From NCBI GenBank assembly GCA_025360385.1, contig JANYCG010000090.1:1-34752 (forward strand): DNA of 34,752 nt, in the 5' to 3' direction. The notes below the pieces were generated by a model that saw only the letters and a list, made by a program, of their open reading frames with translations, had not been told where the DNA came from and did not search any database. A program made the translations under genes and the position numbers. The stretch comes from Burkholderiales bacterium. Its GTDB lineage: Bacteria; Pseudomonadota; Gammaproteobacteria; Burkholderiales; Burkholderiaceae_C. Positions 2-34,752 of this stretch are shown here, one piece after another. Within the stretch, counting starts at the first letter, position 1. Every line of letters starts with the position of its first letter.

Positions 2-3000
2 GTGATTGGCACAGTGGGCACAGCCATCACGGCGATCCAGGTCAACGCCAGCAACCCGCCGCTGAATGCGGGCAGCTACATTGCAACGGGCCTGCCTGTG
101 GGGTTGGCAGTCAACGCCAACACAGGAGTCATCAGCGGTACGCCCACGGCCAGCGGCGACTTTGCGCTGACTCTGGGGGCCAGCAACGCCAGCGGCGCGG
201 GCACGCTTAACGTCACGGTGCGCATCAACGCCAGTGCTACGCCAGTAATCACCAGTTCAAATACTGTCCCAACCCTCACTGCTGGCGTTGCGGGTGGCTC
301 CATTTACCAAATCACTGCGTCGAACGGGCCAAATTTGAGTTACGGGGTAGTTGCCCCCAGTAGCCTTCCGCCCGGTTTAAGTTTGAATGTTGCAACCGGA
401 CTTATTTCCGGCAATCCAACGCAAAGCGGGTCTTTTACTGCGACGGTCAGTGCAAACAATGCAGCAGGAAGCGGGACCAAAGTGCTGGCCTTTACTGTGA
501 ACGCGGTGGCTGCGCCAGTCGTCACCAGCCCGACATTTGTAAATTTGGCACCCGGTTTGGCAATGACGCCAATTCCGGTTTTGGCTTCAAATCCACCCAT
601 TCTGAGTTATCAAGTTCTATCCGGCAGCGCATTGCCGGCCGGGCTTGTCTTGAACGCCACGACTGGTTTGATTTCTGGCACGCCTACCTCGCCCGGGCCT
701 GTGTCCGTCGTCTTGAGTGTGAGCAATGCAGCCGGGACTGGGACATTGACGGTGCCATTCACTGTAGGAGTACCCGCACCCGCAAATTGTGTAATGACAG
801 TTCCTCTGAACACGGCAACTACACTTGACTTGAAGACCTGTATGTTCCCGGCCTTCTCGCCTACCGGAATTTCGATTTTGGCCACGCCTTCGCATGGGGC
901 CGTGACTATTAGTGGCACGAGTATTACCTTCACGCCTGTAAACAACTATTTCGGCACGGACAGCTTCTCCGCCGTGGCGTATTTCATTGGGGGCAGCACC
1001 ACGTCACCTGGCGTGGTGACCGTCACCATCACCGGCCGACCTGACCCGACCAAAGACACGAATGTGCTTGCCATTGCGGCAGCGCAGGCAGATACCCTCC
1101 AGCGATTTTCAAGAGCCCAGGTGTCAAATTTCCAGCGTCGCATGGAGGCGCTGCACCAGCGTGGAGGAGCCGGTTCTGGCGCTGCGCCAACACTTCTAGC
1201 CAGACGCGATGCGGCAAATTCGTCGCCCCCCGCCTTCGCTGAGCCTAACCGTAGCAGCCTTGCCGCACTGGACGGTCAGCAGGCGACTCGCCCGATATCG
1301 GAGGCACAGGCACTTGACGCGGTCGCTAGCGGCACGGGACTTAAGTCCCTGCCATTTGCAGAGTCGGTTGCAAGTCTATTGACTAACAAATCGGTGAATC
1401 TTGCCAATTTGGTGCAGGGCAACGGATTACCGACTTCAGATTCGACCAGCTATTGGATCGAAGGTGTCGTCAGTTTTGGCAAGGGGGGCGCTACAGCAAT
1501 TTCGAACGCTTATGAGTTCACTACAAACGGTGTCAGTGTCGGTGTTGATCGTCGGCTGAATGACAAATTTGCCTATGGATTTGGCGTTGGTATTGCTCAA
1601 GACAAAACACTGATTGGCACAGACGGCTCACGAAATGACGGGCGCGGGCTATCTGTCGCCGCTTATGGCAGTTACCAGCCCAGCCCCGGCAATTACATCG
1701 ACGGAATGTTGGGTGTTGGCACGATAGATTTCGATACACGGCGTTACGTCGCGCCCATCAACGACTTCGCATTGGGCAGTCGCAAAGGGGTTCAGTTGTT
1801 TGGCTCAATCACTGCAAGCCATGAGTTCCGGGACAACGGCCTCATGTTTGCACCCTATGGGCGCCTGGACTTCACCTCCGACCGAATGCAAGACGGCACT
1901 GAAACGGGTGCGGGCGCCTACGCATTGTCTTATTTTGGTCAGACAAGTTCGTCGATGCAGGCCGCGCTCGGAACTCGGGCCGAATCGATTCACTCCACCA
2001 GTTTTGGCTGGGCTATACCCCGAGTCAGGGCCGAGCTTAGGCATGAGTTCCAGAGTGACCGGCAATTGCTCATTTCTTACGCTGATCAAATTGGTGGCCC
2101 TGTTTATGCCCTGCCAACCGGTTCGGTGGGGCGCGATAGTTTGGTGCTGGGGGTTGGCAGCGACTTCATCCTGCGTGACGGCTGGACACTGGGCCTGGAC
2201 TATCAGCTTACCAACTCTTTTTCTCAGGAGTCGAGTTTTGCGCTGAAAATCAAGCTGACCAAAGATTTTGATGCGCGCGGGTTGCCCAAACTGCTCGGCG
2301 TTTCCGCCGAAAATCAAGGCAAACCCATAGATGTTCAGGTCGATGCTGGTTTGGTGGTCGATGACAACGTGACTCGAGCCAAAGAGGGGCCGGATCGCGT
2401 GTCCGACAATTCCTATTTTGTCAATGTCAGCAAATCCAGCCAATACCCACTGTCTGAGCATTCAAGAGCCTTGCTGACAGGGACATTGGGTGGAGAAAAA
2501 TTCCAAAATTTCAATGGCCTGAGCCGCCTGTCCGCCAGCATTGAGGGCGAACTGCAATACCGTGATTCTTCTGAATTCGATGCGCCTACCCTGGCATTGT
2601 TTGGGCGCATTTCGGTTGACCGCCACCAATCTTATCTGCGGGACGGTTACAGGTACTCCCTGGGTGCCTCCATACGTGAACCATTGACGGATCGAATCAG
2701 TCTCTTTGCCGCATTGGCCTATAACGAGCGCTTTGGGAACAGCGCGGTCTTCAATTCGACCGACACTTCGCTGCGGCTGAATGCTGACTATGCCTTGAGC
2801 GCACGTGCGACCCTTTATGCGACGGGTGAATACAGGCGCGGCGACATTGTGTCTACCGGACGGCCGTCACTTGAAAATGTGAGCATTGCCAAAGTATTTG
2901 TGCAAGATGATGCTTACCCTGGAGGTCAGTTTTTCAGCTACAAATTTGACGGCTCAACGATTCTGGCGACATTTGGGTATAACCTGGGTCTGGGGCCACG

Positions 3001-3124
3001 AGACTCAGTTGATTTTTCATGGCGCCGGGTTGAGTCCACGCCGAGTTTGCGCCCGAGCTTTGTCACCTCGCCCAATAGTTACATCGACAACCAGTTCGCA
3101 ATCACCTATCTGGTCAGGTTCTAG
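2..3124 (+). CDS. Outer-membrane autotransporter-like protein with Ig-like repeats (5' end outside window)
   Basis: The reading frame is open from the window edge, so the true start and signal peptide are missing; 1040 residues are visible. Three repeats of about 85 residues (about 1-75, 80-167, 170-255) carry the putative-Ig (He_PIG) signature 'LPxGLxxNxxTGxISGxPT' followed by 'SNAAGxGT'. A fourth beta-rich module (about 262-350, 'NNYFGTDSFSAVAY') resembles cadherin-like tandem Ig domains. A charged helical stretch (about 355-390) precedes an autotransporter-type beta-barrel (about 470-770, 'YWIEGVVSFGKGG', 'GFGVGIAQDK'). A further beta-rich region (about 775-1040) contains 'VDDNVTRA' and ends in '...ITYLVRF', a terminal aromatic typical of outer-membrane barrels. 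Inference: a surface-exposed adhesin or structural protein. The cytochrome lipoprotein gene starts 5 nt after its stop codon, so the two are probably co-translated. The partner or ligand is unknown. Confidence 0.8.
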   Translation: MIGTVGTAITAIQVNASNPPLNAGSYIATGLPVGLAVNANTGVISGTPTASGDFALTLGASNASGAGTLNVTVRINASATPVITSSNTVPTLTAGVAGGSIYQITASNGPNLSYGVVAPSSLPPGLSLNVATGLISGNPTQSGSFTATVSANNAAGSGTKVLAFTVNAVAAPVVTSPTFVNLAPGLAMTPIPVLASNPPILSYQVLSGSALPAGLVLNATTGLISGTPTSPGPVSVVLSVSNAAGTGTLTVPFTVGVPAPANCVMTVPLNTATTLDLKTCMFPAFSPTGISILATPSHGAVTISGTSITFTPVNNYFGTDSFSAVAYFIGGSTTSPGVVTVTITGRPDPTKDTNVLAIAAAQADTLQRFSRAQVSNFQRRMEALHQRGGAGSGAAPTLLARRDAANSSPPAFAEPNRSSLAALDGQQATRPISEAQALDAVASGTGLKSLPFAESVASLLTNKSVNLANLVQGNGLPTSDSTSYWIEGVVSFGKGGATAISNAYEFTTNGVSVGVDRRLNDKFAYGFGVGIAQDKTLIGTDGSRNDGRGLSVAAYGSYQPSPGNYIDGMLGVGTIDFDTRRYVAPINDFALGSRKGVQLFGSITASHEFRDNGLMFAPYGRLDFTSDRMQDGTETGAGAYALSYFGQTSSSMQAALGTRAESIHSTSFGWAIPRVRAELRHEFQSDRQLLISYADQIGGPVYALPTGSVGRDSLVLGVGSDFILRDGWTLGLDYQLTNSFSQESSFALKIKLTKDFDARGLPKLLGVSAENQGKPIDVQVDAGLVVDDNVTRAKEGPDRVSDNSYFVNVSKSSQYPLSEHSRALLTGTLGGEKFQNFNGLSRLSASIEGELQYRDSSEFDAPTLALFGRISVDRHQSYLRDGYRYSLGASIREPLTDRISLFAALAYNERFGNSAVFNSTDTSLRLNADYALSARATLYATGEYRRGDIVSTGRPSLENVSIAKVFVQDDAYPGGQFFSYKFDGSTILATFGYNLGLGPRDSVDFSWRRVESTPSLRPSFVTSPNSYIDNQFAITYLVRF

Positions 3125-3129
3125 CCAAA

Positions 3130-5115
3130 ATGGTCAAGCCCATCCTTAATCGTATTGTTTGCCTGATCTCGTTGGGCTGCCTGTTGCTGTTGGTCGCATG
3201 CGGTGGTGGTGGCGGAGGGACGAGCGGCGGTGGCGACATCGTTCCGGGCAAAGGGCCGGTCCTTGCCGCCACCGGCCCCGACAGTTTCCTGCTGTTCCCC
3301 AATCCGCAAAAACAGGTCGACGGATCCCTGGAAGTGAATTCCACCGACTATGCAAAGGCCTATTACGAGGCGATAGACCCCAACAATGACCGGGATACCC
3401 TGGCCAAATTCAAGGCGGTGAATGGTCTGGGCACTGGCAGTGGTGGTGGCGCAATAGAAGAGTCTGTCATTGTCGGTGACCAGCGCGATTTGGGGTATGG
3501 GCGCAAAATGACTGCCCGCCAAAATGCCGACGGCAGCTTAGCATTTTTCGTTGAAAATTACCTCGTTGGTGCCTACGGAGCCTATTCCCCATTGAACCTT
3601 GAAGCAGCGATTGTGGGCGCCAAGCAATGGCATATCGGCACCAACGGCATTGAGTTCAGCCCAGGCCCTGGCGGGACGGTAAAGTTTGCCAAGTTCTATA
3701 CCTTTGACCCCATCACCGGCGCAAGGCAAATGGCTGGCAACCTGGATGGACGCGGCGCGAAAGCCATGCCCACGATCTGTATCTCGTGCCATGGCGGTCG
3801 CGGTGACCCGCTCACGCCGCCAGATGCTTCAGGCAAACGGCTGTTCGCGAAAGTCATGAACACGGTGTCACAGGCCCGTGGCGATGTTGGCGCACAGCTG
3901 CATCCGTTTGAGCCTTCGTCGTTTGATTTTTCCAGTTTGCCTGGCTTTTCCCGGGCCTTGCAAGAATCCAAAATCAAGACCATCAACAAGATGGTGCTTT
4001 GCTCGATGAACCTGTCAGAAGCCTCAGGGTTTGCCGAGGATGTATGCCGGGCCAACAACCGCCCGGACAATGGCGGTCTGGCAACTATCAATGAATACCA
4101 GGGAACGGCGGCAACCCACCTCAAGGAGATGTATGGCGGCGACGGCATGCCCCTCGCGGCTACCAGCGCGACGGATACCTATGTCCCTGCCTCATGGGTG
4201 GCGGCGGGCCAGTCCTCGCTTTACATCAAGACGCAGGCGCAAGTTTGCCGTGTTTGCCATTTGCTGCGGGGCACCGGGAACCAGTCGGATATCAACTTTG
4301 ACAGTTTTGAGAAATTTGACGGCTACAGCGACCGTATCAAAACCCACATCATTGACCGGGGCAACATGCCTTTGGCCAAACTGATTTATGACAAATACTG
4401 GAGCACGCCGGAGATCAACAGCGTCATGGCCAACTATCTGGTCGGTAAAGCTTATGCAGACGGTGGGCAGCGCCCTGGCCGTCCCATTGCCGACCCCGGG
4501 CCCAATCGGGTAGTCAAGCAGTTGACAACTGTGTTGTCGGGTGCCATGAGCCTGTATTCAAGCAGCTATCAATGGACCATCGTCGGCGGACCCACAGGTG
4601 CCAGTTTGACCAATGCCAGCAGCGTTCAGCCGACGTTAACTGTGCTTGCGCCCGGCAGTTACACCGTGCAACTGATCACGGGCAACGGCAGCAGTGTGAG
4701 CTCTGCAAGCTCTTTCACCTTGGTGGTGGATACGTCACTTTCATATGACCCCGTGGCGCTGCGTTTTAGCGACATCAAAGCCCTGTTGCAGGCAGGTGGG
4801 GGGCATTGCACCACTTGCCATCAGCCTGGAGGCAATGGTGCCGTAACGCCGCCCGTCTGGTACGCCAGTTATGACCGGGCAGGCACCGGCAATCCACTGG
4901 ATTCAACCAATGACCATTGGCTGTACACCGAACTTAAGGGGCGCATCAACTTCACTGATTTGGTGGCAAGCCCCTTGCTGAGAAAACCTTCTGGCAACCA
5001 TCACAACGGAGGCTTGCGGACAGGCTTTGACACCAGTCTTGCGCCGGGTGACGCAGGACGCATAGATTACGACAAATTCCTGGGCTGGATTCTGAATGGA
5101 GCGCCAGAAAATTGA
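3130..5115 (+). CDS. Tri-haem cytochrome c lipoprotein with PKD-like domain
   Basis: The 661-residue product begins with a lipoprotein signal peptide; the lipobox 'LVAC' places the lipidated Cys at residue 24, followed by a Gly-rich tether. Three c-type haem-binding motifs are visible: CISCH (217-221), CRVCH (373-377) and CTTCH (560-564). Between the second and third lies a beta-rich PKD/Ig-like stretch (about 450-540, 'YQWTIVGGPTGASLT...GSYTVQLITGNG'). Expected location is the periplasmic face of the inner or outer membrane, or the cell surface. The start is only 5 nt after the stop of the upstream barrel gene and has no strong ribosome-binding site, which suggests translational coupling. 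Inference: it hands electrons to or from something at the outer membrane together with the barrel protein, or is a redox enzyme of unknown substrate. I do not recognise a named family. Confidence 0.82.
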   Translation: MVKPILNRIVCLISLGCLLLLVACGGGGGGTSGGGDIVPGKGPVLAATGPDSFLLFPNPQKQVDGSLEVNSTDYAKAYYEAIDPNNDRDTLAKFKAVNGLGTGSGGGAIEESVIVGDQRDLGYGRKMTARQNADGSLAFFVENYLVGAYGAYSPLNLEAAIVGAKQWHIGTNGIEFSPGPGGTVKFAKFYTFDPITGARQMAGNLDGRGAKAMPTICISCHGGRGDPLTPPDASGKRLFAKVMNTVSQARGDVGAQLHPFEPSSFDFSSLPGFSRALQESKIKTINKMVLCSMNLSEASGFAEDVCRANNRPDNGGLATINEYQGTAATHLKEMYGGDGMPLAATSATDTYVPASWVAAGQSSLYIKTQAQVCRVCHLLRGTGNQSDINFDSFEKFDGYSDRIKTHIIDRGNMPLAKLIYDKYWSTPEINSVMANYLVGKAYADGGQRPGRPIADPGPNRVVKQLTTVLSGAMSLYSSSYQWTIVGGPTGASLTNASSVQPTLTVLAPGSYTVQLITGNGSSVSSASSFTLVVDTSLSYDPVALRFSDIKALLQAGGGHCTTCHQPGGNGAVTPPVWYASYDRAGTGNPLDSTNDHWLYTELKGRINFTDLVASPLLRKPSGNHHNGGLRTGFDTSLAPGDAGRIDYDKFLGWILNGAPEN

Positions 5116-21540: not shown

Positions 21541-23670
21541 TCAGGCAGAAACCATGCCCTGGTGCCGCAACAAGGCGTCCAGCGTCGGCTCGCGGCCCCG
21601 GAAGGCCTTGAACGACTCGATGGCAGGGCGGCTGCCGCCTGCCTCCAGAATGGCGTGACGGTATTTTCTACCCGTTTCGATATTTGGCAAGCCGTTGTTA
21701 CCAGCGGTTTCTTCAAACGCCGCGTAGGCATCAGCGCTTAACACTTCAGCCCATTTGTAGCTGTAGTAACCGGCCGCATAACCGCCCGCAAAAATGTGGC
21801 TGAAAGTGTGGACGCTGCGCGACCATGGCGGCGGCTGGATCACGGCGACCTCGTGCCGCACGGCGTTGAGCAAGGGCATGAAGTCGTCATCCGGGGCATG
21901 GGCGGTGTGCAGCAACATGTCAAACAGCGACAACTCGATTTGCCGCACCGTCTGCATGCCGCTCTGGAAGTTTTTGGCGGCCAGCATTTTGTCGAACAGC
22001 CCGCGTGGCAGGGGCGCCCCCGTGTCCACATGCGAGGTCATGTGTCTGAGCACATCCCATTCCCAGCAGAAATTCTCCATGAACTGGCTGGGCAACTCGA
22101 CGGCATCCCACTCCACGCCGCTGATGCCCGAGACATCGCGTTCATTCACCAGCGTGAGCATGTGGTGCAGGCCATGGCCGAATTCGTGGAACAGCGTGGT
22201 CACGTCATCGTGCGTCAGCAGGGCTGGTTTTTTGACGCCGTCCACCTCAACGCCGTCGGCAAAATTGCAGACCAGGTGGGCCACCGGGGTTTGCAAAACG
22301 CCATTGTCCGGGCGCAGCCAACGCGAGCGTGCATCGTCCATCCAGGCACCGCCAAGTTTGCCGTTGCGGGCGGTCGGGTCCAGGTAAAACTGACCCACCA
22401 GAGCGGGGCCCCGTTCGGTCTGGCGTTCAATGCGGTAAAACGCCGCGCCTGGGTTCCACACTGGGGCGCTGTCCTGGCGGATCGACACCTCAAACAGGGT
22501 CTCCACAATTTTGAACAGGCCAGCCAACACTTTGGGTGCCGTGAAATATTGTTTGACGTCCTGCTCGCTGAATGCGTAACGCGCCTCTTTGAGCTTCTCG
22601 CTGACAAAAGACCAGTCCCAGGGTTGCGGGTCTGCCAGGCCCAAATGTTGGGCGGCAAACTCACGCAGATCCGCCAGGTCTTTTTCGGCAAAAGGTTTTG
22701 CTTTGGCTGCCAAATCACGCAGAAAGCTGATGACCTGGGTGGGCGAATGGGCCATTTTGGGCACCAACGAGAGCTCGCCAAAATTCGCATAACCCAACAG
22801 TTGGGCCTCTTCCAGACGCAGCGCCAAAATCTCGTGGATCAAGGCGGAATTGTCGAATTTGGCGGCGTCGGGCGCAGCCTGGTCGGACGCGCGGGTGACG
22901 TGGGCGCGGTACAGGGTTTCACGCAGTTCGCTGCTTTTGGCAAACTGCATGATGGGCAGGTAACAGGGCATTTTCAGGCTGAGTTTGTAGAGGGCCTTGC
23001 CATTTGCCTTGCCGTTCGCCGTGGCGTTTGCCGTGGCGTTTGCATCCGACGGCGATTGGCCTCGGTCTGCGCCCGCCTTAGCGGCTGCCAAGGCCGTTTG
23101 AACCACGTCTTGCGGCACGCCATCCAGCTCGTCCAGCGTCGCGTAGTACGCAAAGGCGTCGGTTGCATCCAGCGCGTTTTCGCTGAACTTCTGGCTCAAT
23201 TCAGCTTGCCGCTCCTGGATGGCGGCAAAACGCTCACGGGCCGCGCCGACAAGCTCCGCGCCACCCAGCACAAAATTGCGCACAGCATTTTTGTGGGCCT
23301 GCTTTTGCTCGGCATTGAGCGTGGCGACGTCTATGTTTTTGTATTTGGCGTAGAGCTGCTCGTTGGCGCCCAGGCGAGTGAAATATTCGGTGATTTTGGG
23401 CAGCGCTTCGTTGTAGGCGGCGCGTAACTCGGGCGTGTCGGCCACGGCGTTGAGGTGGCTCACTGCACCCCAGGCGCGGCCGAGTTTTTCAGTGGCGACA
23501 TCCAGCACCTTGGCAATCGCCGTCCATTGCGCGGGGAAGTCGTCGGCGGTGACGCTGGCGAGAGCGACTTCAGCCTGCGCCAGCAACGCGTCCACGGCGG
23601 GGCCGACATGGGTGGGCTGGATTTGGTCAAACAGTGGGAGATCGGCAGAGTCGAGCAGGGGATTGTTCAT
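21541..23670 (-). CDS. prlC: Oligopeptidase A (M3 family metallopeptidase)
   Basis: The 709-residue cytoplasmic zinc peptidase degrades short peptides, including signal-peptide fragments in the E. coli counterpart. The zinc/catalytic motif 'TTLFHEFGHGLHHML' and the downstream Glu region 'WDAVELPSQFMENF' are intact. 'AGGYAAGYYSYKWAEVLSADAYAAFEE' is the C-terminal family block with substrate-binding tyrosines. An unusual insertion near residues 211-226 reads ANAT-ANAT-ANGK-ANGK and is encoded by four 12-bp repeats. The protein is otherwise usual in length (E. coli 680). It lies between folD and the glutaredoxin-like gene on the same strand. Confidence 0.94.
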   Translation of the reverse strand: MNNPLLDSADLPLFDQIQPTHVGPAVDALLAQAEVALASVTADDFPAQWTAIAKVLDVATEKLGRAWGAVSHLNAVADTPELRAAYNEALPKITEYFTRLGANEQLYAKYKNIDVATLNAEQKQAHKNAVRNFVLGGAELVGAARERFAAIQERQAELSQKFSENALDATDAFAYYATLDELDGVPQDVVQTALAAAKAGADRGQSPSDANATANATANGKANGKALYKLSLKMPCYLPIMQFAKSSELRETLYRAHVTRASDQAAPDAAKFDNSALIHEILALRLEEAQLLGYANFGELSLVPKMAHSPTQVISFLRDLAAKAKPFAEKDLADLREFAAQHLGLADPQPWDWSFVSEKLKEARYAFSEQDVKQYFTAPKVLAGLFKIVETLFEVSIRQDSAPVWNPGAAFYRIERQTERGPALVGQFYLDPTARNGKLGGAWMDDARSRWLRPDNGVLQTPVAHLVCNFADGVEVDGVKKPALLTHDDVTTLFHEFGHGLHHMLTLVNERDVSGISGVEWDAVELPSQFMENFCWEWDVLRHMTSHVDTGAPLPRGLFDKMLAAKNFQSGMQTVRQIELSLFDMLLHTAHAPDDDFMPLLNAVRHEVAVIQPPPWSRSVHTFSHIFAGGYAAGYYSYKWAEVLSADAYAAFEETAGNNGLPNIETGRKYRHAILEAGGSRPAIESFKAFRGREPTLDALLRHQGMVSA
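22994..23041. repeat. In-frame 12-bp tandem repeat within prlC
   Basis: Four 12-bp units (22994, 23006, 23018, 23030) include two identical copies of GCCGTGGCGTTT and two near-copies of GCCTTGCCATTT. Read on the minus strand they encode the four-residue repeats ANAT and ANGK in oligopeptidase A. Confidence 0.88.
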
Positions 23671-24728: not shown

Positions 24729-25355
24729 TCAGGGTTTTGGGCTGTTCTGGCCCAAGGCGATTTTCAGCAAATCGGCGACCGTGTTGGCGTTGAGTTTTTC
24801 CATGATGTTGGCGCGGTGCGCTTCCACCGTTTTGATGCTGATGCCCAAGTCGTCGGCAATCTGCTTGTTCAGCCGCCCGGCGACGATGCGCTCCAGCACC
24901 TGCGATTCGCGCAGCGTCAGCTTGGACAGCAGGGCGTCGCGGCTGGCGGATTGCTGGTGTTCGGCAAAGGTGACTTTGGCGTGCGCCAGCATGCGCTCAA
25001 CCAGGCCGACCAGTTGCTCTTCTTTGAAGGGTTTCTGGATGAAATCCATGGCGCCCTTTTTCATCGTGTCCACGGCCATCGGTACGTCGCCATGGCCGGT
25101 GATGAACACGATGGGCAGGGGTGAGCGCAGGTCGGTCAGCTTGTTTTGCAGCTCGAGCCCCGTCATGCCGCCCATGCGGATGTCGACGATCAGGCAGGCC
25201 ACTTCGCGTGCGTCGTAACGGCTTAAAAACGATTCGGCTGAATCAAAGCAGCGCACCCGGTAGTCTTTGCCTTCGAGCAGCCACTGCAGCGAGTCACGCA
25301 CGGCCTCGTCGTCGTCCACGACATAAACAGTGCCTTTTTTCGGAATCAAGCTCAT
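24729..25355 (-). CDS. FixJ-like response regulator (receiver + LuxR-type HTH)
   Basis: The 208-residue protein has a receiver domain ('VYVVDDDEAVRDSLQ', phospho-acceptor Asp58 in 'LIVDIRMGG', 'FITGHGD', conserved Lys in 'IQKPF'). A LuxR/FixJ DNA-binding domain follows at about 147-203 ('LTLRESQVLERIVAGRLNKQIADDLGISIKTVEAHRANIMEKL'). It is expected to become phosphorylated by the kinase encoded 5 bp upstream and to bind DNA. FixJ/TtrR/DctR-type regulators control respiration or organic-acid use in related bacteria; the target here is unknown. The divergent aceE promoter region is an obvious candidate. Confidence 0.93.
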   Translation of the reverse strand: MSLIPKKGTVYVVDDDEAVRDSLQWLLEGKDYRVRCFDSAESFLSRYDAREVACLIVDIRMGGMTGLELQNKLTDLRSPLPIVFITGHGDVPMAVDTMKKGAMDFIQKPFKEEQLVGLVERMLAHAKVTFAEHQQSASRDALLSKLTLRESQVLERIVAGRLNKQIADDLGISIKTVEAHRANIMEKLNANTVADLLKIALGQNSPKP

Positions 25356-25360
25356 TCGGT

Positions 25361-27916
25361 TTACCCTGGGGTCTTTAACTGTTTTCGGGCTGACGCCAGC
25401 GCAGAAGGCGCTGGCGGGGCTGGCTCGGCGCAGGGTATCCAGAAGGAGAAACAGCAGCCTGAGACATCGCTACCATTGTAAAGGTTCTCGGCTTTCATCC
25501 GCCCTTGGTGCGACTCGACGATGGAGCGGCACAAGGACAGACCAATGCCCATGCCATGCGCCTTGGTGGAAAAGAACGCCTCATACAGGCGCTGCATGAC
25601 TTCCGGTGCCAGGCCGGCACCCGAGTCGTGTACGGCAAACTCAACCACCGGGATGTTGTCGACGCGTTTTTGTGCGACCCGCAGCACAACGCTGCGACGT
25701 GCGGTGGGACGGGCCGCCGAGTCCACCGATTCAGCCCCGTTTTTGAGCAGGTTGACCAGCACCTGCTCGATCAGGATCGGGTCTACCAGCAACTTGGGCA
25801 GGCGGTGCGCCAGGTGGTGCGTCAGGCGCACATTGCGCCGCCGCAGTTCAATTTCTGCCAGCTCGAGGGCTTCATTGACCATGCCATGCACGTCCGACAG
25901 GGTGCGGTTGGGTTCACTGCGTTTGACGAAGGAGCGGATGCGCTGGATGATCTGGCCCGCGCGCTGGGCTTGCTTGGCGGTTTTGTCCAGCGCTTTGAGC
26001 AAGTCTTCTTCCGAAATCTGCTTGCCCCGGATGCGCGTCACCATGCCATTGCAGTAGTTGTTGATGGCGGTCAGCGGCTGGTTCAGCTCATGGGCCACGC
26101 TGGAGGCCATCTCGCCCATGGTGATTAGGCGGCTGGAGTTTTGCGAACGCTCCGCCTGCAAGGCCGACTGCTCTTCGGCCAGGCGCCGCGCCGTGATGTC
26201 GGTGGCAATCACCATCTGGGCCAGACGGCCATCGACCCAGGCCAGGTAACGCGTGCGCACTTCGATCCACTTGCCAAGCGTGCTTAAAAACACCTCGGCG
26301 CTTTCGGTCTCCGATTCGGCCAGCTTGGCAATCGGCAGGCCCGCCAGCGAATCGACCGAATCCTGCGCTTCGTCGTTGGTCGGTTTGGGCGGCACCCCGG
26401 CCTGGGCCACCAACTGCAAGTGACCCGCCGCTTCGGCGCCAAACCACAAGCGGTACAGCTTGTTGGCGAACAACAGCTCTTCACTGCCGATCGGTCCGAC
26501 AGAAATGGACGCGTCCAGGGCTTCAAGCACGGTTGTGAAACGCTCGTACGAGGCGGACAGCTGCTCGCGGACGCGGTTGGGCTCGGTGATGTCGGTCATC
26601 GACGTCATCCAGCCCGTTTGCGCCCCGCGCGAATCGATCAGCGGCGACACGTAGAGCCGCGCATCAAACAGGCTGCCTTCCCGGCGTTGCACGCGCACCT
26701 GGATGCCGCCCGGCGCCGTTCGGCCATTGAGCTCGTCGTCCAGCCTGGATGCCAGGGTTTCACGGTCCATCGCCGGCCAATACGGAAACGGCGCCGTGCT
26801 GCCCACCAAGTCGGCCTCGCCAAATCCCGTCATCTGGCAAAACGCCGCGTTCACGTAAGTGATGCGGCCATGCAAGTCCATCGCACGCATGCCCGTCAGC
26901 ATGGAGTTCTCCATGGCGCGGCGGAAATTGGTTTCAGACACCAGCGCCTGTTGCGCCTGCATGCGCCGGCGCATGTGGCGCCAGTTGGCGATCAACATCC
27001 AGGCCGTGGTGCCCGACAAGGCGATGACCAGCCAGAACAGCCCACTGCCAATGACGCCCAGCGAGGTGCGGTAGGCCTGGGCCTTGATGATCAGGCCATT
27101 GCCGACGGGCGACACTGGCACCTCGTAGGAGTTGGCCGCGGTGGCCCAAGGCAACAAGCTGCTGCCCGGGTTGTAGGGCGGAACCGAGGCGCCGGCCAGC
27201 CGGCCACCCCTTGCGTCGTGGAACGACACCGCGTAACGCGCCGACACTTCTGACGGCACGCCGTATCGGTAAATGCCATCGACTGAATATTCAGCCAGCA
27301 AGACGCCGGCAAAACGGGCGCGGTCCGTCAGCGGGATATGCAGTTGCAGTTGCACTGGCGCACTGGAGGCCGCACGCTGGAAATAAACCGGCTGCTTCAG
27401 GTCTTTGGCGACGCCGAAATTGGCATCGGTTTCACCCGCGCGCAGCACGGTGCCGACCCCCCGGATCTGGGTGATTGCCAGGCTGGCCGTGCCGTAGCTG
27501 GACTTAATTTTCTTTTTGTCGTCGATCCAACTGATGGCGTCAAGCTCGGGGTACTGGTTGACCAGGGATTCCGCCCGGTCATGAAAGTCATCGGCGTCCA
27601 GCTCGCGGTTGGAGACGTCACGCGCCAGCCGCATCAACTGTTCCTGGCGCTCCAACAGGCGCAGGCGCAGGCGCTGCTGGGTGTACTCCACATCCCGTTT
27701 GACGGCCTCTTGCTCGCGGTCAATTTCCTCCAGACGCAAATAGGCAAAGGCGGCAACGATGGCAATCAAAAAAACGATCACCGCCGCCAACGGCGCCAGC
27801 ACGGAAAACCGGTCCTGCCGCTGCGGCGAAAGTTTGTGCCACCAGTGCCGCAAACGCGTGCGCAACCGCGAGGGTGCCAGCGCAGCGGGCAGTGACAAAA
27901 CAGGCGGAACGGACAT
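25361..27916 (-). CDS. PAS-domain sensor histidine kinase (FixL/DctS-like)
   Basis: The 851-residue kinase has a first membrane helix (about 39-60), a periplasmic sensing region (about 61-284), a second helix (about 285-309), two PAS domains (about 323-448 and 453-578), a dimerisation domain with His609 in 'SSVAHELNQPLTAINNYCNG' and an ATPase domain (N box 'VLVNLLKNGAESV', G1 'VHDSGAGL', G2 'HGMGIGLSLCRSI'). The H-box type is that of FixL/DctB/DctS kinases. The periplasmic part resembles double-helix plus alpha/beta sensor modules that bind small ligands. No Cys or His haem site like that of FixL is obvious, so a small-molecule signal is more likely than oxygen. An in-frame GTG 22 codons upstream is an alternative start. 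Operon with the response regulator, divergent from aceE. Confidence 0.9.
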   Translation of the reverse strand: MSVPPVLSLPAALAPSRLRTRLRHWWHKLSPQRQDRFSVLAPLAAVIVFLIAIVAAFAYLRLEEIDREQEAVKRDVEYTQQRLRLRLLERQEQLMRLARDVSNRELDADDFHDRAESLVNQYPELDAISWIDDKKKIKSSYGTASLAITQIRGVGTVLRAGETDANFGVAKDLKQPVYFQRAASSAPVQLQLHIPLTDRARFAGVLLAEYSVDGIYRYGVPSEVSARYAVSFHDARGGRLAGASVPPYNPGSSLLPWATAANSYEVPVSPVGNGLIIKAQAYRTSLGVIGSGLFWLVIALSGTTAWMLIANWRHMRRRMQAQQALVSETNFRRAMENSMLTGMRAMDLHGRITYVNAAFCQMTGFGEADLVGSTAPFPYWPAMDRETLASRLDDELNGRTAPGGIQVRVQRREGSLFDARLYVSPLIDSRGAQTGWMTSMTDITEPNRVREQLSASYERFTTVLEALDASISVGPIGSEELLFANKLYRLWFGAEAAGHLQLVAQAGVPPKPTNDEAQDSVDSLAGLPIAKLAESETESAEVFLSTLGKWIEVRTRYLAWVDGRLAQMVIATDITARRLAEEQSALQAERSQNSSRLITMGEMASSVAHELNQPLTAINNYCNGMVTRIRGKQISEEDLLKALDKTAKQAQRAGQIIQRIRSFVKRSEPNRTLSDVHGMVNEALELAEIELRRRNVRLTHHLAHRLPKLLVDPILIEQVLVNLLKNGAESVDSAARPTARRSVVLRVAQKRVDNIPVVEFAVHDSGAGLAPEVMQRLYEAFFSTKAHGMGIGLSLCRSIVESHQGRMKAENLYNGSDVSGCCFSFWIPCAEPAPPAPSALASARKQLKTPG

Positions 27917-28028
27917 AGTGCGAGTGTAGGGGAGGCCGCTGCCGTTTTGCCCTGCGCCAAAGGCAAGCGAATTGCACGGCACTGGTGCAATGGAGCCAAT
28001 TTTTGGCGCGGGCGGGCAAAAAGTTTGA

Positions 28029-28087
28029 ATGCGATGTTCAATTGAATATTCAATTGTAAAATTTCATAATATAAAATTCAATCGCAT
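28029..28087. promoter_or_regulatory. Candidate operator of aceE (nested palindromes)
   Basis: A perfect 18-bp palindrome CAATTGAATATTCAATTG (28039-28056) lies inside an outer inverted repeat ATGCGAT (28029-28035) / ATCGCAT (28081-28087). It overlaps the -35 box of the first aceE promoter candidate. The binding regulator is unknown; a GntR-type (PdhR-like) repressor or the adjacent FixJ-like regulator are guesses. Confidence 0.5.
28042..28070 (+). promoter_or_regulatory. Candidate sigma70 promoter P1 of aceE
   Basis: TTGAAT (28042-28047), 17-bp spacer, CATAAT (28065-28070). The -35 box lies within the 18-bp palindrome, which suggests control by a bound repressor. Confidence 0.5.
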
Positions 28088-28090
28088 AGG

Positions 28091-28119
28091 TTGAAATAAA
28101 TTTAATTTTGTGAAATAAT
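28091..28119 (+). promoter_or_regulatory. Candidate sigma70 promoter P2 of aceE
   Basis: TTGAAA (28091-28096), 17-bp spacer, AATAAT (28114-28119). It would give a leader of about 50 nt, with AGGAG (28167-28171) just before the aceE ATG. Confidence 0.5.
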
Positions 28120-28176: not shown

Positions 28177-30927
28177 ATGTCAGCACTTCCAAATGACGAT
28201 TCAAAACGCCTGATGGGCGCCGCCAATGACGGCGACAGCCAGGAAACCCGCGAGTGGACCGACGCCTTGAGCGCCGTCATCCAGGCCGAAGGCCCAGAGC
28301 GCGCCCACTTTTTGCTGGAGCAATTGCTGGAGCATGCGCGCCAGCAAAGCATTGACATGCCGTTCTCGGCCAACACCGGTTACGTCAACACCATCGAGAC
28401 CGACCAGGAAGCGCGTTGTCCCGGCAACATCGAAATTGAAGAGCGCCTGCGCGCCTACATGCGCTGGAATGCCATGGCCATGGTGGTCAAGGCCAACCGG
28501 CACCATCCCGTTGACGGCGGCGACCTGGGCGGCCACATCGGCTCGTTTGCCTCGCTGGCCCACATGTTCGGCGCGGGCTTCAATCATTTCTGGCACGCTG
28601 AAAGCAATGTGCCCGGCAAAGAACACGGCGGCGATTGCCTCTACATTCAGGGTCACGTGTCGCCGGGCGTTTACGCGCGGGCCTATCTGGAAGGCCGCCT
28701 GACCGAGGAGCAGCTGCTCAACTTCCGCCAGGAAGTGGACGGCAAAGGTTTGTCCAGTTACCCGCACCCGAAACTGATGCCCAACTTTTGGCAGTTCCCC
28801 ACGGTGTCGATGGGCTTGGGGCCATTGATGGCGATTTACCAGGCCCGTTTTCTTAAATACTTGCACGCCCGTGGTATTGCCGACACCGCCAACCGCAAGG
28901 TCTGGGTGTTCTGCGGCGACGGCGAGATGGACGAGGTCGAGTCTTTGGGTGCCATTGGCCTGGCTGCGCGCGAGAAGTTGGACAACCTGATCTTCGTCAT
29001 CAACTGCAACCTGCAACGCCTGGACGGCCCGGTGCGCGGCAATGGCAAGATCATCCAGGAACTCGAAGGCGAGTTCCGTGGTGCCGGCTGGAACGTCATC
29101 AAACTGCTGTGGGGCAGCGAATGGGATCCCCTGTTGGCGCGTGACAAAGACGGCGCCTTGAAGAAGCTGATGATGGAAACGCTGGACGGCGACTACCAGG
29201 CCTTCAAGGCCAATGACGGTGCTTACGTGCGCAAACATTTTTTTGGCCGCGACCCCCGCACGCTGGAGATGGTGGCGCACATGAGCGACGACGAAATCTT
29301 CGCGTTGAAGCGCGGCGGCCACGACCCGAAAAAGGTCTACGCGGCCTACCACTCGGCGGTCAACCACAAAGACCAGCCCACGGTGCTCTTGATCAAGACC
29401 GTCAAGGGTTTTGGCATGGGAAAGAGCGGCGAAGGCAAGAACAATGTGCACCAGACCAAGAAGCTGACCGACGAAGACATCAAAATCTTCCGCGACCGCT
29501 TCAACCTGCCGATCCCCGACAGCCAGCTGGCCGACATTCCGTTTTACAAACCGGCCGACGACACACCGGAAATGAAGTACCTGCACGAGCGCCGCGAGGC
29601 CCTGGGCGGCTACCTGCCGCACCGCCGTGCCAAGGCCGACGAGCAGTTCACCATACCGGCGCTGGAGACCTTCAAGTCGGTGATTGAGCCCACGGCAGAG
29701 GGCCGCGAAATCTCGACCACCCAGGCCTATGTGCGCTTTTTGACAACGCTGCTGCGCGACCAGGCCCTGGGGCCGCGCGTGGTGCCCATCTTGGTCGATG
29801 AGGCCCGCACTTTCGGCATGGAAGGCCTGTTCCGCCAGATCGGCATCTACAACCCCGATGGCCAGCAATACACCCCGGTCGACAAAGACCAGGTGATGTA
29901 TTACAAGGAAGACAAAAAAGGCCAGATTCTGCAAGAAGGCATCAACGAAGCGGGCGGCATGAGCAGCTGGATCGCGGCGGCCACGTCGTACAGCACGAAC
30001 AACCGCATCATGGTGCCGTTTTACGTTTATTACTCGATGTTCGGCTTCCAGCGTATTGGTGACCTGGCCTGGGCGGCCGGCGACATGCAGGCGCGCGGCT
30101 TTTTGCTGGGCGGCACCTCGGGGCGCACCACCTTGAACGGCGAAGGCCTGCAGCACGAAGACGGCCACAGCCACATCATGGCCGGCACGATTCCGAACTG
30201 CATCAGCTACGACCCGACCTTTGCGCATGAAGTTGGCGTCATCCTGCACCATGGCCTCAAACGCATGGTGGAGAAACAGGACAACGTGTATTACTACATC
30301 ACGCTGCTGAATGAAAACTACGCCATGCCGGGCCTGACCGCAGGCACGCAAGAGCAGATCATCAAGGGCATGTACCTGTGCAAAGAGGGCGCAGTGCCAC
30401 CGAAGGGCACCGCCGATGCCGTGACGCCACGGGTTCAGCTTTTGGGTTCTGGCACCATCCTGCGCGAATCGATTGCCGCGCAGGATTTGCTGGAGAAAGA
30501 CTGGGGCGTTGCCGCCAACGTCTGGAGTTGCCCCAGCTTCAACGAGCTGACGCGTGAAGGCCAGGACTGCGAGCGTTTCAACCTGCTGCATCCCACCGAC
30601 AAGGCCCGCGTGTCCTTTGTGGCCCAGCAACTCGACAAACACACCGGCCCCGTGGTGGCGTCCACCGACTACATGAAGGCCTATGCCGAGCAGATTCGCC
30701 CTTTCATCCCCAAGGGCCGCACCTACAAGGTGTTGGGCACCGACGGCTTTGGCCGCAGCGACTTCCGCAGCAAACTGCGCGAGCACTTCGAGGTCAACCG
30801 CCACTACATCGTGCTGGCCGCCTTGAAGGCCTTGAGTGAAGAGGGCACTGTGCCCGTCGCCAAAGTGCTGGAAGCCATCCAGAAATACGGCATCAAGGTG
30901 GACAAAATCAATCCGCTTTACGCTTGA
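28177..30927 (+). CDS. aceE: Pyruvate dehydrogenase E1 component, homodimeric type
   Basis: The 916-residue thiamine-diphosphate enzyme decarboxylates pyruvate and acetylates the lipoyl groups of E2; it is the first component of the cytoplasmic PDH complex. The N-terminus has 'IDMPFSANTGYVNTI' and 'HPVDGGDLGGHIGSFAS'. The ThDP/Mg motif 'CGDGEMDEVESLGAIGLAAREKLDNLIFVINCNLQRLDGPVRGNG' starts near residue 246. The transketolase-like C-terminal parts carry 'DEARTFGMEGLFRQIGIY' and 'GFGRSDFRSKLREHFEV'. Length and motifs match the AceE type (E. coli 887). Strong ribosome-binding site AGGAG. First gene of aceE-aceF-peptidase-lpdA, 90 bp before aceF. Confidence 0.96.
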   Translation: MSALPNDDSKRLMGAANDGDSQETREWTDALSAVIQAEGPERAHFLLEQLLEHARQQSIDMPFSANTGYVNTIETDQEARCPGNIEIEERLRAYMRWNAMAMVVKANRHHPVDGGDLGGHIGSFASLAHMFGAGFNHFWHAESNVPGKEHGGDCLYIQGHVSPGVYARAYLEGRLTEEQLLNFRQEVDGKGLSSYPHPKLMPNFWQFPTVSMGLGPLMAIYQARFLKYLHARGIADTANRKVWVFCGDGEMDEVESLGAIGLAAREKLDNLIFVINCNLQRLDGPVRGNGKIIQELEGEFRGAGWNVIKLLWGSEWDPLLARDKDGALKKLMMETLDGDYQAFKANDGAYVRKHFFGRDPRTLEMVAHMSDDEIFALKRGGHDPKKVYAAYHSAVNHKDQPTVLLIKTVKGFGMGKSGEGKNNVHQTKKLTDEDIKIFRDRFNLPIPDSQLADIPFYKPADDTPEMKYLHERREALGGYLPHRRAKADEQFTIPALETFKSVIEPTAEGREISTTQAYVRFLTTLLRDQALGPRVVPILVDEARTFGMEGLFRQIGIYNPDGQQYTPVDKDQVMYYKEDKKGQILQEGINEAGGMSSWIAAATSYSTNNRIMVPFYVYYSMFGFQRIGDLAWAAGDMQARGFLLGGTSGRTTLNGEGLQHEDGHSHIMAGTIPNCISYDPTFAHEVGVILHHGLKRMVEKQDNVYYYITLLNENYAMPGLTAGTQEQIIKGMYLCKEGAVPPKGTADAVTPRVQLLGSGTILRESIAAQDLLEKDWGVAANVWSCPSFNELTREGQDCERFNLLHPTDKARVSFVAQQLDKHTGPVVASTDYMKAYAEQIRPFIPKGRTYKVLGTDGFGRSDFRSKLREHFEVNRHYIVLAALKALSEEGTVPVAKVLEAIQKYGIKVDKINPLYA

Positions 30928-31017: not shown

Positions 31018-32730
31018 ATGGCATTGCTGGACATACAAGTACCCGACATTGGGGATTTTGACGAAGTGACCGTCATTGAATTGATGGTCAAACCCGGCGA
31101 CACGGTCGCTGCCGACCAGTCGCTGATCACCGTGGAGTCTGACAAGGCCTCCATGGAAATACCGTCCAGCCACGGCGGCGTGGTCAAGGCGGTTTGGGTC
31201 AAACTGGGTGACAAGGTCAAGCAGGGCTCTCGGGTGGTGCAGCTTGAAGTAGCGGGTGCCGCTGCCGCCTCTGCCGCTCCAGCAGCCCCTAACGCTTCCC
31301 AAACGCCCGATCAGGCAGCAAAAGTAGCGGATGTTCCCGTGCTTGCTGCACAGTCAGCTATTCATAATGTAGCGACCACCAGCGCCGGTCTGATCGAAGT
31401 GCGGGTGCCTGACATCGGCGACTTCAAGGACGTGGCGGTGATAGAGCTGCTGGTCAAGGTGGGCGACAGCGTCAAAACCGAGCAGTCGCTGATGACCGTC
31501 GAGTCCGACAAGGCGGCGATGGAAATCCCGTCCAGCGCGGCGGGTGTGGTGAAAGAATTGAAGGTCAAATTGGGCGATAAGGTCAATGTGGGGGACTTGA
31601 TTGCGGTGCTGGAAGGGGCCGCAGCTGCTGTCCCGGTGGCAGCGGTAGCCACAGCCACCACCACCGTTCGCCCTGAGCCTGTCGAAGGGCCTGCTGCCGC
31701 TGCAGCTTCGACAAGCTCAGCCCGAACGGAGGTTGCCGTGTCTGCCCCCGCCGCCGTGCCTGCCCACAACCCCATCGGCATGCCTATCGGCCTGCCCCAC
31801 GCCTCACCTTCCGTGCGCAAATTCGCGCGTGAGCTCGGCGTGCCATTGGCCGAAGTCAAAGGCAGCGGGCTCAAAGGCCGTATCACCGAATCCGACGTGC
31901 AGGGCTTCACCAAATCCGTGATGAGTGGCGCGGTGCAAACCCTGGCCATTGCGGCGCAGGCCAAGTCCAAACCCTCCACGGCCAGCGACGGCGGTGGCTT
32001 GGGCCTCTTGGCCTGGCCCAAGGTGGACTTCAGCAAGTTCGGCGTGGTCGAGCGCAAGGACATGTCGCGCATCAAGAAGATCAGCGGCGCCAACCTGCAC
32101 CGCAACTGGGTGCTGATTCCGCACGTTACCAACCACGACGACTGCGACATCACAGACCTGGAGGCTTTTCGCGTCCAGATGAACAAGGAAAACGAGAAGG
32201 CCGGCATCAAGCTCACCATGCTGGCCTTCATGATCAAGGCCAGCGTGGCGGCCCTCAAAAAATTTCCCGAGTTCAACAGCTCGATCGACGGCGACCAGTT
32301 GGTGCTGAAGCAGTACTATCACATCGGATTTGCCGCCGATACGCCCAACGGCCTGATGGTGCCAGTCATCAAGGACGCCGACAAAAAAGGTGTGGTGCAG
32401 ATCTCCACCGAGATGGGTGAACTGGCCAAGAAGGCGCGTGACGGCAAGCTGAGCCCGGCCGAGATGAGCGGTGCCTGCTTCACCATCAGTTCCTTGGGCG
32501 GCATTGGCGGGCGTTATTTCACGCCCATCATCAACGCCCCCGAAGTCGCCATCATGGGCGTGTGCAAGAGCCAGATTGAGCCCAAGTGGGACGGCAAGGC
32601 CTTTGTGCCCAAGCTGATGCTGCCACTGTCGCTGTCATGGGACCACCGCGTGATTGACGGTGCTGCCGCCGCACGGTTTAACGCGTATTTTGGCCAGGTG
32701 CTGACCGACTTCCGTCGGGTCCTGTTGTGA
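31018..32730 (+). CDS. aceF: Pyruvate dehydrogenase E2, dihydrolipoamide acetyltransferase
   Basis: The 570-residue E2 core subunit transfers acetyl groups to CoA. Two lipoyl domains (about 1-80 and 124-202) carry lipoyl-lysines Lys43 and Lys165 in 'ESDKAS' and 'ESDKAA'. Flexible Ala/Pro-rich linkers follow each. The peripheral subunit-binding domain is at about 262-297 ('SPSVRKFARELGVPLAEVKGSGLKGRI'). The catalytic domain ends with 'SLSWDHRVIDGAAAARF', with catalytic His543 and Asp547. The second linker (about 216-238) is encoded by a REP-like inverted pair. The first linker end overlaps a 17-bp mini-repeat. Preceded by AGGAG; 19 bp before the proteasome-like gene. Confidence 0.96.
   Translation: MALLDIQVPDIGDFDEVTVIELMVKPGDTVAADQSLITVESDKASMEIPSSHGGVVKAVWVKLGDKVKQGSRVVQLEVAGAAAASAAPAAPNASQTPDQAAKVADVPVLAAQSAIHNVATTSAGLIEVRVPDIGDFKDVAVIELLVKVGDSVKTEQSLMTVESDKAAMEIPSSAAGVVKELKVKLGDKVNVGDLIAVLEGAAAAVPVAAVATATTTVRPEPVEGPAAAAASTSSARTEVAVSAPAAVPAHNPIGMPIGLPHASPSVRKFARELGVPLAEVKGSGLKGRITESDVQGFTKSVMSGAVQTLAIAAQAKSKPSTASDGGGLGLLAWPKVDFSKFGVVERKDMSRIKKISGANLHRNWVLIPHVTNHDDCDITDLEAFRVQMNKENEKAGIKLTMLAFMIKASVAALKKFPEFNSSIDGDQLVLKQYYHIGFAADTPNGLMVPVIKDADKKGVVQISTEMGELAKKARDGKLSPAEMSGACFTISSLGGIGGRYFTPIINAPEVAIMGVCKSQIEPKWDGKAFVPKLMLPLSLSWDHRVIDGAAAARFNAYFGQVLTDFRRVLL
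31357..31373. repeat. 17-bp mini-repeat within the aceF linker
   Basis: GCTATTCATAATGTAGC has 5-bp near-inverted arms and lies in the coding sequence for 'SAIHNVA'. It resembles sequences at 33674-33690 (in lpdA) and 6047-6063. Confidence 0.4.
31664..31729. repeat. REP-type inverted pair inside aceF
   Basis: The left arm starts CCGTTCGCCCTGAGCCTGTC (31664-31690). The right arm (31705-31729) is its near reverse complement, containing GCTTCGACAAGCTCAGC. This is the widespread repetitive extragenic palindrome type normally found between genes. Here it is in frame and reads 'VRPEPVEG...STSSARTE' in the E2 linker. Confidence 0.82.
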
Positions 32731-32737
32731 TTCGCAC

Positions 32738-32752
32738 GGAGCACTCAGTTTG
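32738..32752 (+). promoter_or_regulatory. Ribosome-binding site and TTG start of the proteasome-like gene
   Basis: GGAG (32738-32741) lies 8 nt before a TTG codon at 32750. The next codon is ACC (Thr), the expected catalytic N-terminal residue after Met removal. There is no nearby in-frame ATG that would keep the Thr at position 2, so the TTG start is supported by function as well as spacing. Confidence 0.7.
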
Positions 32753-33334
32753 ACCACGGTCATTGTTGTCAAGAAAGCCGGCCAGGTCGCCATCGCGGCG
32801 GACACGCTGGTCACGTTTGGCGATACGCGCCTGTCCAGCCGCTTTGAAGCCAATAGCAAGCTGTTCAAAATCGACACGCCGGCCGGCCCGAGTTACGTCG
32901 GCATTGCCGGTACGGTGGCGCACTTCCCCGTGCTGCGCAAAGCCATGCTGGCGCTGCCCAAAAAGGAATTGTTGCTGGGCGGCAAGGACGAGGTGTTTGA
33001 CACCTTCACCAAACTGCACCCCATGCTCAAGGAAACGTTTTTCCTGCAGACCAAGGAAGACGACAACGACCCGTATGAGTCCAGCCAGTTCAGCGTGGTG
33101 GTGGCCAACGCCACCGGCATCTACGGCCTGTACAGCTACCGCGAAGTATTTGAGTTCAACCAGTTCTGGGGCATTGGCTCCGGTCGCAGCTTTGCCCTTG
33201 GGGCCATGCATGCGGTATGGGACAAGGCCAAAACAGCGCGGGAGATCGCATCGGTTGGCATGGCGGCCGGCTGTGAGTTTGACAAAAACTCAGGAGGCCC
33301 AGTGGAAATTTTTACCTTGAAGCTGAAAAAGTAG
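32750..33334 (+). CDS. Proteasome/HslV-like threonine peptidase (BPH-like)
   Basis: The 194-residue protein belongs to the Ntn-hydrolase proteasome superfamily. After Met removal it starts 'TTVIVVKKAGQVAIAADTLVTFG', aligning Thr1 and Asp17 with HslV and proteasome beta subunits. Lys36 in 'SKLFKI' takes the place of Lys33, with a 3-residue insertion before it. 'GIGSGRSFALGAMHAV' and 'ASVGMAAGCEFDKNSGG' match the later active-site and packing segments. There is no propeptide. It differs from HslV and Anbu and fits the betaproteobacterial proteasome homologue (BPH), which known work describes as a double-ring peptidase. Gaps of 19 bp to aceF and 27 bp to lpdA put it in the PDH operon. No unfoldase (HslU, Mpa/ARC) gene is visible here. 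Confidence 0.85.
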   Translation: MTTVIVVKKAGQVAIAADTLVTFGDTRLSSRFEANSKLFKIDTPAGPSYVGIAGTVAHFPVLRKAMLALPKKELLLGGKDEVFDTFTKLHPMLKETFFLQTKEDDNDPYESSQFSVVVANATGIYGLYSYREVFEFNQFWGIGSGRSFALGAMHAVWDKAKTAREIASVGMAAGCEFDKNSGGPVEIFTLKLKK

Positions 33335-33361: not shown

Positions 33362-34752
33362 ATGGCAACGCTTGAAATTAAGGTTCCGGACATTGGTGAT
33401 TTTGATGAAGTCACCGTGATTGAGTTGATGGTGAAGGCGGGCGACCGCGTTGCGGCTGACCAAAGCCTCATCACCGTGGAGAGTGACAAGGCTTCGATGG
33501 AAATCCCGTCCAGCCATGCTGGCGTCGTGAAGTCGCTGGCGGTCAAGCTGGGCGACAAAGTCAAGCAAGGCTCGGTGATTTTGCAACTGGACGCAGAAGG
33601 AGCCCAAAACGCAGCTGAAACTTCTTCTACACAAGAAAAACAGGCCAAAGTTCCCGTGGGTATTGAACAGTCTGCTATAAATAATGTAGTATTTTTCGCG
33701 ACGCCAGGTGCCGCCAGTTATGCCGGCACCGCCGATCTGGACTGCGACCTGCTGGTGCTGGGCGCTGGCCCCGGCGGTTACAGCGCCGCCTTCCGCGCCG
33801 CCGACCTGGGCCTGAAAGTGGTGCTGGTCGAGCGCTACGCCACCCTGGGCGGTGTGTGCCTGAACGTCGGTTGCATCCCCTCCAAAGCCCTGCTGCACGT
33901 GGCTGCGGTGATGGACGAAGTGAGTCACCTCGGCGCTTTGGGCATCGAGTTTGGCGCGCCCAAGGTCAACATCGACACACTGCGCGGCCACAAAGAAAAG
34001 GTCATAGCCAAACTGACTGGCGGTCTGGCCGCCATGGCCAAGATGCGCAAGGTGACCACCGTGCGCGGCGTGGGCCAGTTTCTCAGTGCCAATCATGTGG
34101 AGGTGGAGGAAACCACCGGTGCCCAGGGCCAGGAAAAAACTGGCAGCAAAAAAGTCGTCGCGTTCAAGAAGTGCATCATCGCCGCCGGCAGTCAGGCCGT
34201 GCGATTGCCCTTCATGCCCGAGGATCCACGCGTGGTGGACAGTACCGGTGCCCTGGGTTTAAAAGATGTCCCCAAGCGCATGCTCATTCTGGGTGGCGGC
34301 ATCATCGGCCTGGAAATGGGCACGGTCTACAGCACCCTGGGGGCGCGTCTGGACGTGGTTGAAATGCTAGACGGCCTGATGCAGGGCGCGGACCGGGACC
34401 TGGTCAAAATCTGGCAGAAGATGAACGCCAAGCGCTTTGACAACATCATGCTCAAGACCAAGACCGTTTCTGCACGCGCCTTGCCCGAAGGCATCGAGGT
34501 GACATTCGCATCGGCAGAAGAGGGCGGCACCGCCCCCGCGCCGCAGGTGTATGACCTGGTGTTGCAAGCCGTGGGCCGCACGTCCAACGGCAAGAAGATC
34601 GCAGCCGAGAAGGCCGGCGTAGCGGTGACGGACAGAGGCTTCATCAACGTCGACATCCAGATGCGCACCAATGTGCCCCACATTTTTGCCATCGGCGACA
34701 TCGTGGGCCAGCCCATGCTGGCGCACAAGGCGGTGCACGAGGCGCATGTGGC
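33362..34752 (+). CDS. lpdA: Dihydrolipoamide dehydrogenase (PDH E3) with N-terminal lipoyl domain, 3' end outside window
   Basis: The frame is open to the window end; 463 codons are visible. It begins with a lipoyl domain (about 1-80, Lys43 in 'ESDKAS') nearly identical to the first one of aceF, then a linker ('[11 protein letters not shown]'). The FAD-dependent E3 follows: '[23 protein letters not shown]', redox-active disulfide Cys166/Cys171 ('[16 protein letters not shown]'), NAD-binding '[22 protein letters not shown]' and '[17 protein letters not shown]'. It reoxidises dihydrolipoamide of E2 with NAD+. E3 with a lipoyl domain is known in betaproteobacteria and Neisseria. The C-terminal dimer interface lies beyond the window. 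Weak ribosome-binding site AAAGAGA. Confidence 0.95.
33674..33690. repeat. 17-bp mini-repeat within the lpdA linker
   Basis: GCTATAAATAATGTAGT, preceded by CAGTCT, closely parallels the sequence at the same place in the aceF linker (31357-31373). It encodes 'SAINNVV'. Confidence 0.4.

Follow-up and report, generated by a model that had tools for sequence, protein, structure and literature searches.

A BPH proteasome homolog encoded between aceF and lpdA in the pyruvate dehydrogenase operon of a Burkholderiales bacterium

Introduction

The closest described relatives of the gene considered here are the BPHs of Cupriavidus metallidurans (Cm-BPH) and Thiobacillus denitrificans (Td-BPH), for both of which a tetradecameric double ring has been reported (Fuchs et al., PMC5777263). 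The same authors, citing Valas & Bourne 2008, listed three settings in which the BPH gene occurs: with argG, with the three PDC genes (in C. metallidurans) and with hsp33. In the characterised BPHs the initiator methionine is removed to expose Thr1 as the nucleophile, the subunits form a 14-mer barrel and inhibitors are bound, Thr1 reacting with epoxomicin and MG132; both purified proteins were inactive on standard peptides and on casein (PMC5777263). The N-terminal residue is Thr in Betaproteobacteria and Ser outside them, and an acidic pore loop is a hallmark of the family (PMC5777263). HslV is regarded as the ancestor of BPH, yet the residues of the HslU interface are not conserved in BPH and no partner AAA+ protein was found (PMC5777263). 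Pull-downs with Cm-BPH, reported as 'data not shown' and made in a species other than the one studied here, recovered neither PDC subunits nor HslU, and carbonylation patterns were unchanged (PMC5777263). We found no later functional work on BPH in the literature that we searched.

Here we analyse a stretch of 34,752 nucleotides (the window; GenBank assembly GCA_025360385.1, contig JANYCG010000090.1) in which a sequence-only reading had noticed a threonine-peptidase gene between the E2 and E3 genes of pyruvate dehydrogenase (PDH). That reading assigned the gene to BPH and suggested that it serves in turnover or quality control, either of the PDH complex or of lipoylated or acetylated proteins.

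Results

The open reading frame placed at 32750-33334, on the same strand as the E2 and E3 genes and separated from them by 19 and 27 bp, was located exactly (Table 1). Its product matches the Pfam Proteasome family (PF00227, 26.9 bits against a cut-off of 22.4). The best match in the PDB is the BPH of C. metallidurans (5ovu, E = 7.8e-65), followed by that of T. denitrificans (5ovs, E = 1.2e-32), whereas HslV is far weaker (E = 0.0025). By these matches the gene is a BPH, which confirms the original assignment. In an alignment of ten BPHs, read with the residue roles given in PMC5777263, T2, D18, K37, G54 and S144 (numbering including Met) are invariant, so that Thr1 and Asp17 are present as claimed; the lysine at the Lys33 site is found as mature Lys36, which aligns with Lys37 of Td-BPH, a residue equated with proteasome Lys33 (PMC5777263). 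G54 and S144 are the equivalents of Gly50 and Ser139, the glycine lying in the oxyanion region. The N-terminal threonine directly follows the start methionine with no propeptide, and the pore loop QTKEDDNDPYESS aligns with the long, acidic loops of Cm-BPH and Td-BPH between H2 and S7. A dN/dS of about 0.09 against the closest relatives argues that the reading frame is real rather than a chance one, and that the gene is, by this measure, under purifying selection.

Table 1. Features of the PDH operon and of the BPH gene in the window
Feature	Position	Strand	Basis or remark
sigma-70-like promoter matches (two candidates), 5' of aceE	28042..28119	+	consensus scan
aceE, PDH E1 (homodimeric type)	28177..30927	+	TIGR00759, 1421.6 bits
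aceF, PDH E2 with two lipoyl domains, E3-binding and catalytic domain	31018..32730	+	TIGR01348, 714.9 bits; Pfam
aceF-BPH intergenic gap, 19 bp, with Shine-Dalgarno-like GGAG at 32738-32741	32731..32749	+	sequence
BPH ORF, proteasome-like N-terminal-nucleophile threonine hydrolase	32750..33334	+	194 aa, TTG start
Catalytic Thr1 codon (after Met removal)	32753..32755	+	invariant in BPH alignment
Asp17 codon	32801..32803	+	invariant in BPH alignment
Codon of mature Lys36, the counterpart of proteasome Lys33	32858..32860	+	invariant in BPH alignment
Acidic BPH pore loop QTKEDDNDPYES	33047..33082	+	alignment
lpdA, PDH E3 with N-terminal lipoyl domain	33362..34752	+	TIGR01350, 311.8 bits, partial protein; Pfam

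Cm-BPH (Rmet_1198, 5ovu) is about 55% identical to the window protein over nearly the full length, and the two have in common the catalytic residues, the acidic loop, the PDH-operon context and the clade. They differ in the TTG start, which belongs to the window gene, and in four inserted residues (DTPAG region) ahead of the oxyanion-hole glycine; the remaining differences are ordinary divergence. Td-BPH (5ovs, 5ovt), at 39% identity, shares the family and the active site but stands in the argG context and in a separate clade.

The source assembly (4.12 Mb in 337 contigs, 98% complete) contains one BPH and, on another contig (C97), a separate hslV-hslU pair scoring 272 and 649 bits. HslV (ClpQ) resembles BPH in its fold and its Thr1/Asp17/Lys33-type site; unlike BPH, it forms hexameric rings, carries basic residues in a short pore linker and has HslU as a partner. 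The HslV models gave the window protein only 28-30 bits and so failed their cut-offs of 137 and 158; these scores, together with the genuine hslVU pair, rule out the gene as HslV. Since hslU stands beside its own hslV, BPH is an additional homolog, and the distinction from HslV drawn in the sequence-only reading holds. The genome also encodes Anbu (contig C99, L317:1183-2010), a 275-residue protein matching PDB 5loy with E = 2.8e-92 that is likewise proteasome-like but of another family and length, so that three proteasome homologs are present: BPH, HslV and Anbu.

The E1, E2 and E3 genes were identified with NCBIfam and Pfam profiles. The lpdA gene, with an ATG start, is incomplete and reaches the window end. 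A consensus scan from 27900 to the window end placed promoter-like matches on the forward strand only upstream of aceE and none between aceF, BPH and lpdA, although with three matches in total against 1.6 expected by chance the scan is weak evidence; nor was a terminator for BPH found on that strand between the genes. Thus the separate promoter and terminator that would have spoken against membership of the operon did not appear. Among 133 loci of the PDH type (in which some genomes occur twice, and with the lpdA start approximated by the nearest in-frame ATG), BPH is preceded by a median gap of 13 bp and followed by one of 2 bp, and start and stop codons overlap by 4 bp before BPH in 32 loci and after it in 57. 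BPH is likely co-transcribed within the PDH operon, as gene spacing and the scan suggest.

Elsewhere in the window, two genes (24729-27982, reverse strand) lie upstream of aceE and diverge from it, one for a sensor histidine kinase with a PAS domain and the other for a response regulator of the LuxR type; this pair could regulate the PDH operon. A gene for an M3 family (thimet oligopeptidase-like) peptidase occupies 21541-23670 on the reverse strand, about 4.5 kb from the operon, and at the window start (2-5115, forward strand) an autotransporter with Ig-like repeats adjoins a gene with cytochrome c matches.

The order aceF-BPH-lpdA is conserved in relatives. In the 80 closest named loci (Rhodoferax, Polaromonas, Curvibacter, Ramlibacter, Caenimonas and other Comamonadaceae, a set biased toward close relatives) BPH adjoins lpdA throughout, and also aceF where the contig reaches. 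An even draw of the order gave a broader picture: BPH occurs in 154 of 399 genomes, and the 117 loci that could be typed by their neighbours divide into 15 with aceF-BPH-lpdA, 36 with argG-(ppnP)-BPH-yajQ, 42 with BPH-hslO and 24 others, which take in truncated contigs and mixed neighbours and did not yield a fourth context. In seven families (f1, f3, f8, f10, f20, f21 and f32) all typed BPHs are of the PDH type, which was seen in none of the remaining families sampled in this survey. The published argG context is thus more exactly argG-(ppnP-like)-BPH-yajQ (for example L143, L171, L190, L196 and L212), and at argG-type loci of several families folE2 lies further downstream on the opposite strand; the names ppnP, yajQ and folE2 are our reading of the sequences.

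Within the window's own family BPH was hit in 62 of 251 genomes, leaving about three quarters of the family without it. All 57 loci in which BPH is intact and fully visible, the window included, have the order aceF-BPH-lpdA; of the other five hits, contig ends cut through two, one was left out, tblastn did not confirm another and the last is a relic. The relic (L302) lies between aceF and lpdA and has lost about 90 internal residues in frame, the pore loop among them; it could reflect natural decay or, the genome being fragmented, an assembly error. In eight of nine BPH-less family genomes that we fetched, lpdA directly follows aceF. In the ninth, a complete genome (L307), the aceF-lpdA gap, where BPH stands in relatives, holds an unrelated gene about 300 residues long. 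E2 and the lipoyl-domain E3 are alike in BPH-plus and BPH-less genomes, which led us to reject any dependence of PDH architecture on BPH.

In a maximum-likelihood tree with one BPH per genus, all PDH-context BPHs, the C. metallidurans reference among them, group in a single clade (support 97/95), set apart from the argG clade and from the hslO rows. We infer from this that BPH was inserted once between aceF and lpdA in an ancestor, was then passed on vertically and was cleanly lost several times. On that view the shared gene order amounts to one event and not to dozens of independent ones, and we set aside the high count of aceF-BPH-lpdA loci as proof of a functional link. No relocation of BPH within the PDH-context clade was seen in the loci examined.

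Discussion

Both the BPH protein and its position in a PDH operon are already known: the association was published in PMC5777263, with credit to Valas & Bourne 2008 for the contexts, and is not new here. What the sequence-only reading said of BPH identity, of the distinction from HslV and of the operon position has stood, while we find no support for the part in PDH turnover or in lipoyl quality control that it drew from the position.

We favour, at a probability of roughly 0.6, the view that the window encodes an ordinary BPH, an ATPase-independent quality-control peptidase that came to be carried on the PDH transcript by a single insertion and for which PDH is not a dedicated substrate. The protein would be translated from an aceE-aceF-BPH-lpdA transcript and would assemble as its relatives do. 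The barrel probably acts without a partner AAA+ unfoldase on unfolded, damaged or specialised substrates, and the acidic pore loop may select what enters it. The PDH operon would serve mainly as a site of steady expression. Since BPH is present in only 62 of the 251 family genomes and stands in argG or hslO contexts elsewhere, it is not tied to PDH. Two points qualify this proposal. The label 'peptidase' rests on active-site geometry and on the binding of epoxomicin and MG132, the purified BPHs having been inactive (PMC5777263). Furthermore, the position has been kept across many speciations without any relocation seen, which a functional link between BPH and PDH would account for as well.

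Such a link is the core of one alternative, that the BPH of the PDH clade is dedicated to PDH quality control and clears oxidised, orphan or mis-lipoylated E1, E2 or E3 made from the same mRNA. Its strict place between aceF and lpdA, the overlapping start and stop codons in many relatives and the lack of relocation all speak for this. Against it, PDC subunits were not recovered in the pull-downs and carbonylation was unchanged (PMC5777263), about 75% of the window's family lacks BPH, the lipoyl-domain E3 is unchanged in BPH-less genomes, the neighbours in other clades are argG or hslO, and a single insertion is a single data point. Most of the family does without BPH yet keeps PDH, where checked. 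Because of the published negatives, the other contexts, the frequent absence and the single insertion, we consider a PDH role possible but disfavoured, and dedicated quality control improbable.

We hold it no more probable that BPH is a specific processing enzyme or a ligase-like transferase with a narrow substrate, comparable to connectase. This would account for a protein that is inert on standard substrates although its Thr1 reacts with epoxomicin (PMC5777263), and connectase itself is a proteasome-like homolog that acts as a specific ligase (PMC8665760). However, connectase is monomeric, whereas BPH closes into a barrel whose active sites lie inside (PMC5777263, PMC8665760), and the gene context of BPH offers no candidate substrate.

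Slightly less probable still is a variant in which the BPH of the PDH clade, after its one insertion, gained a substrate within the PDH complex or among the lipoyl domains of that complex, and for this reason never moved in the loci seen, though it is often absent. Finally, the idea that the window gene is HslV, the identity already refuted, or an HslU-dependent enzyme can draw on the descent of BPH from HslV (PMC5777263) and on the weak profile matches of 28-30 bits, but we give it hardly any credence given scores far under the cut-offs, the true hslV and hslU on contig C97, the absence of HslU from the pull-downs and the unconserved HslU-interface residues (PMC5777263).

If, as we propose, an ordinary BPH was inserted once into the PDH operon and then lost frequently, the outcome is a natural set of relatives that have or lack BPH, whose PDH operons are otherwise alike and which are directly comparable.
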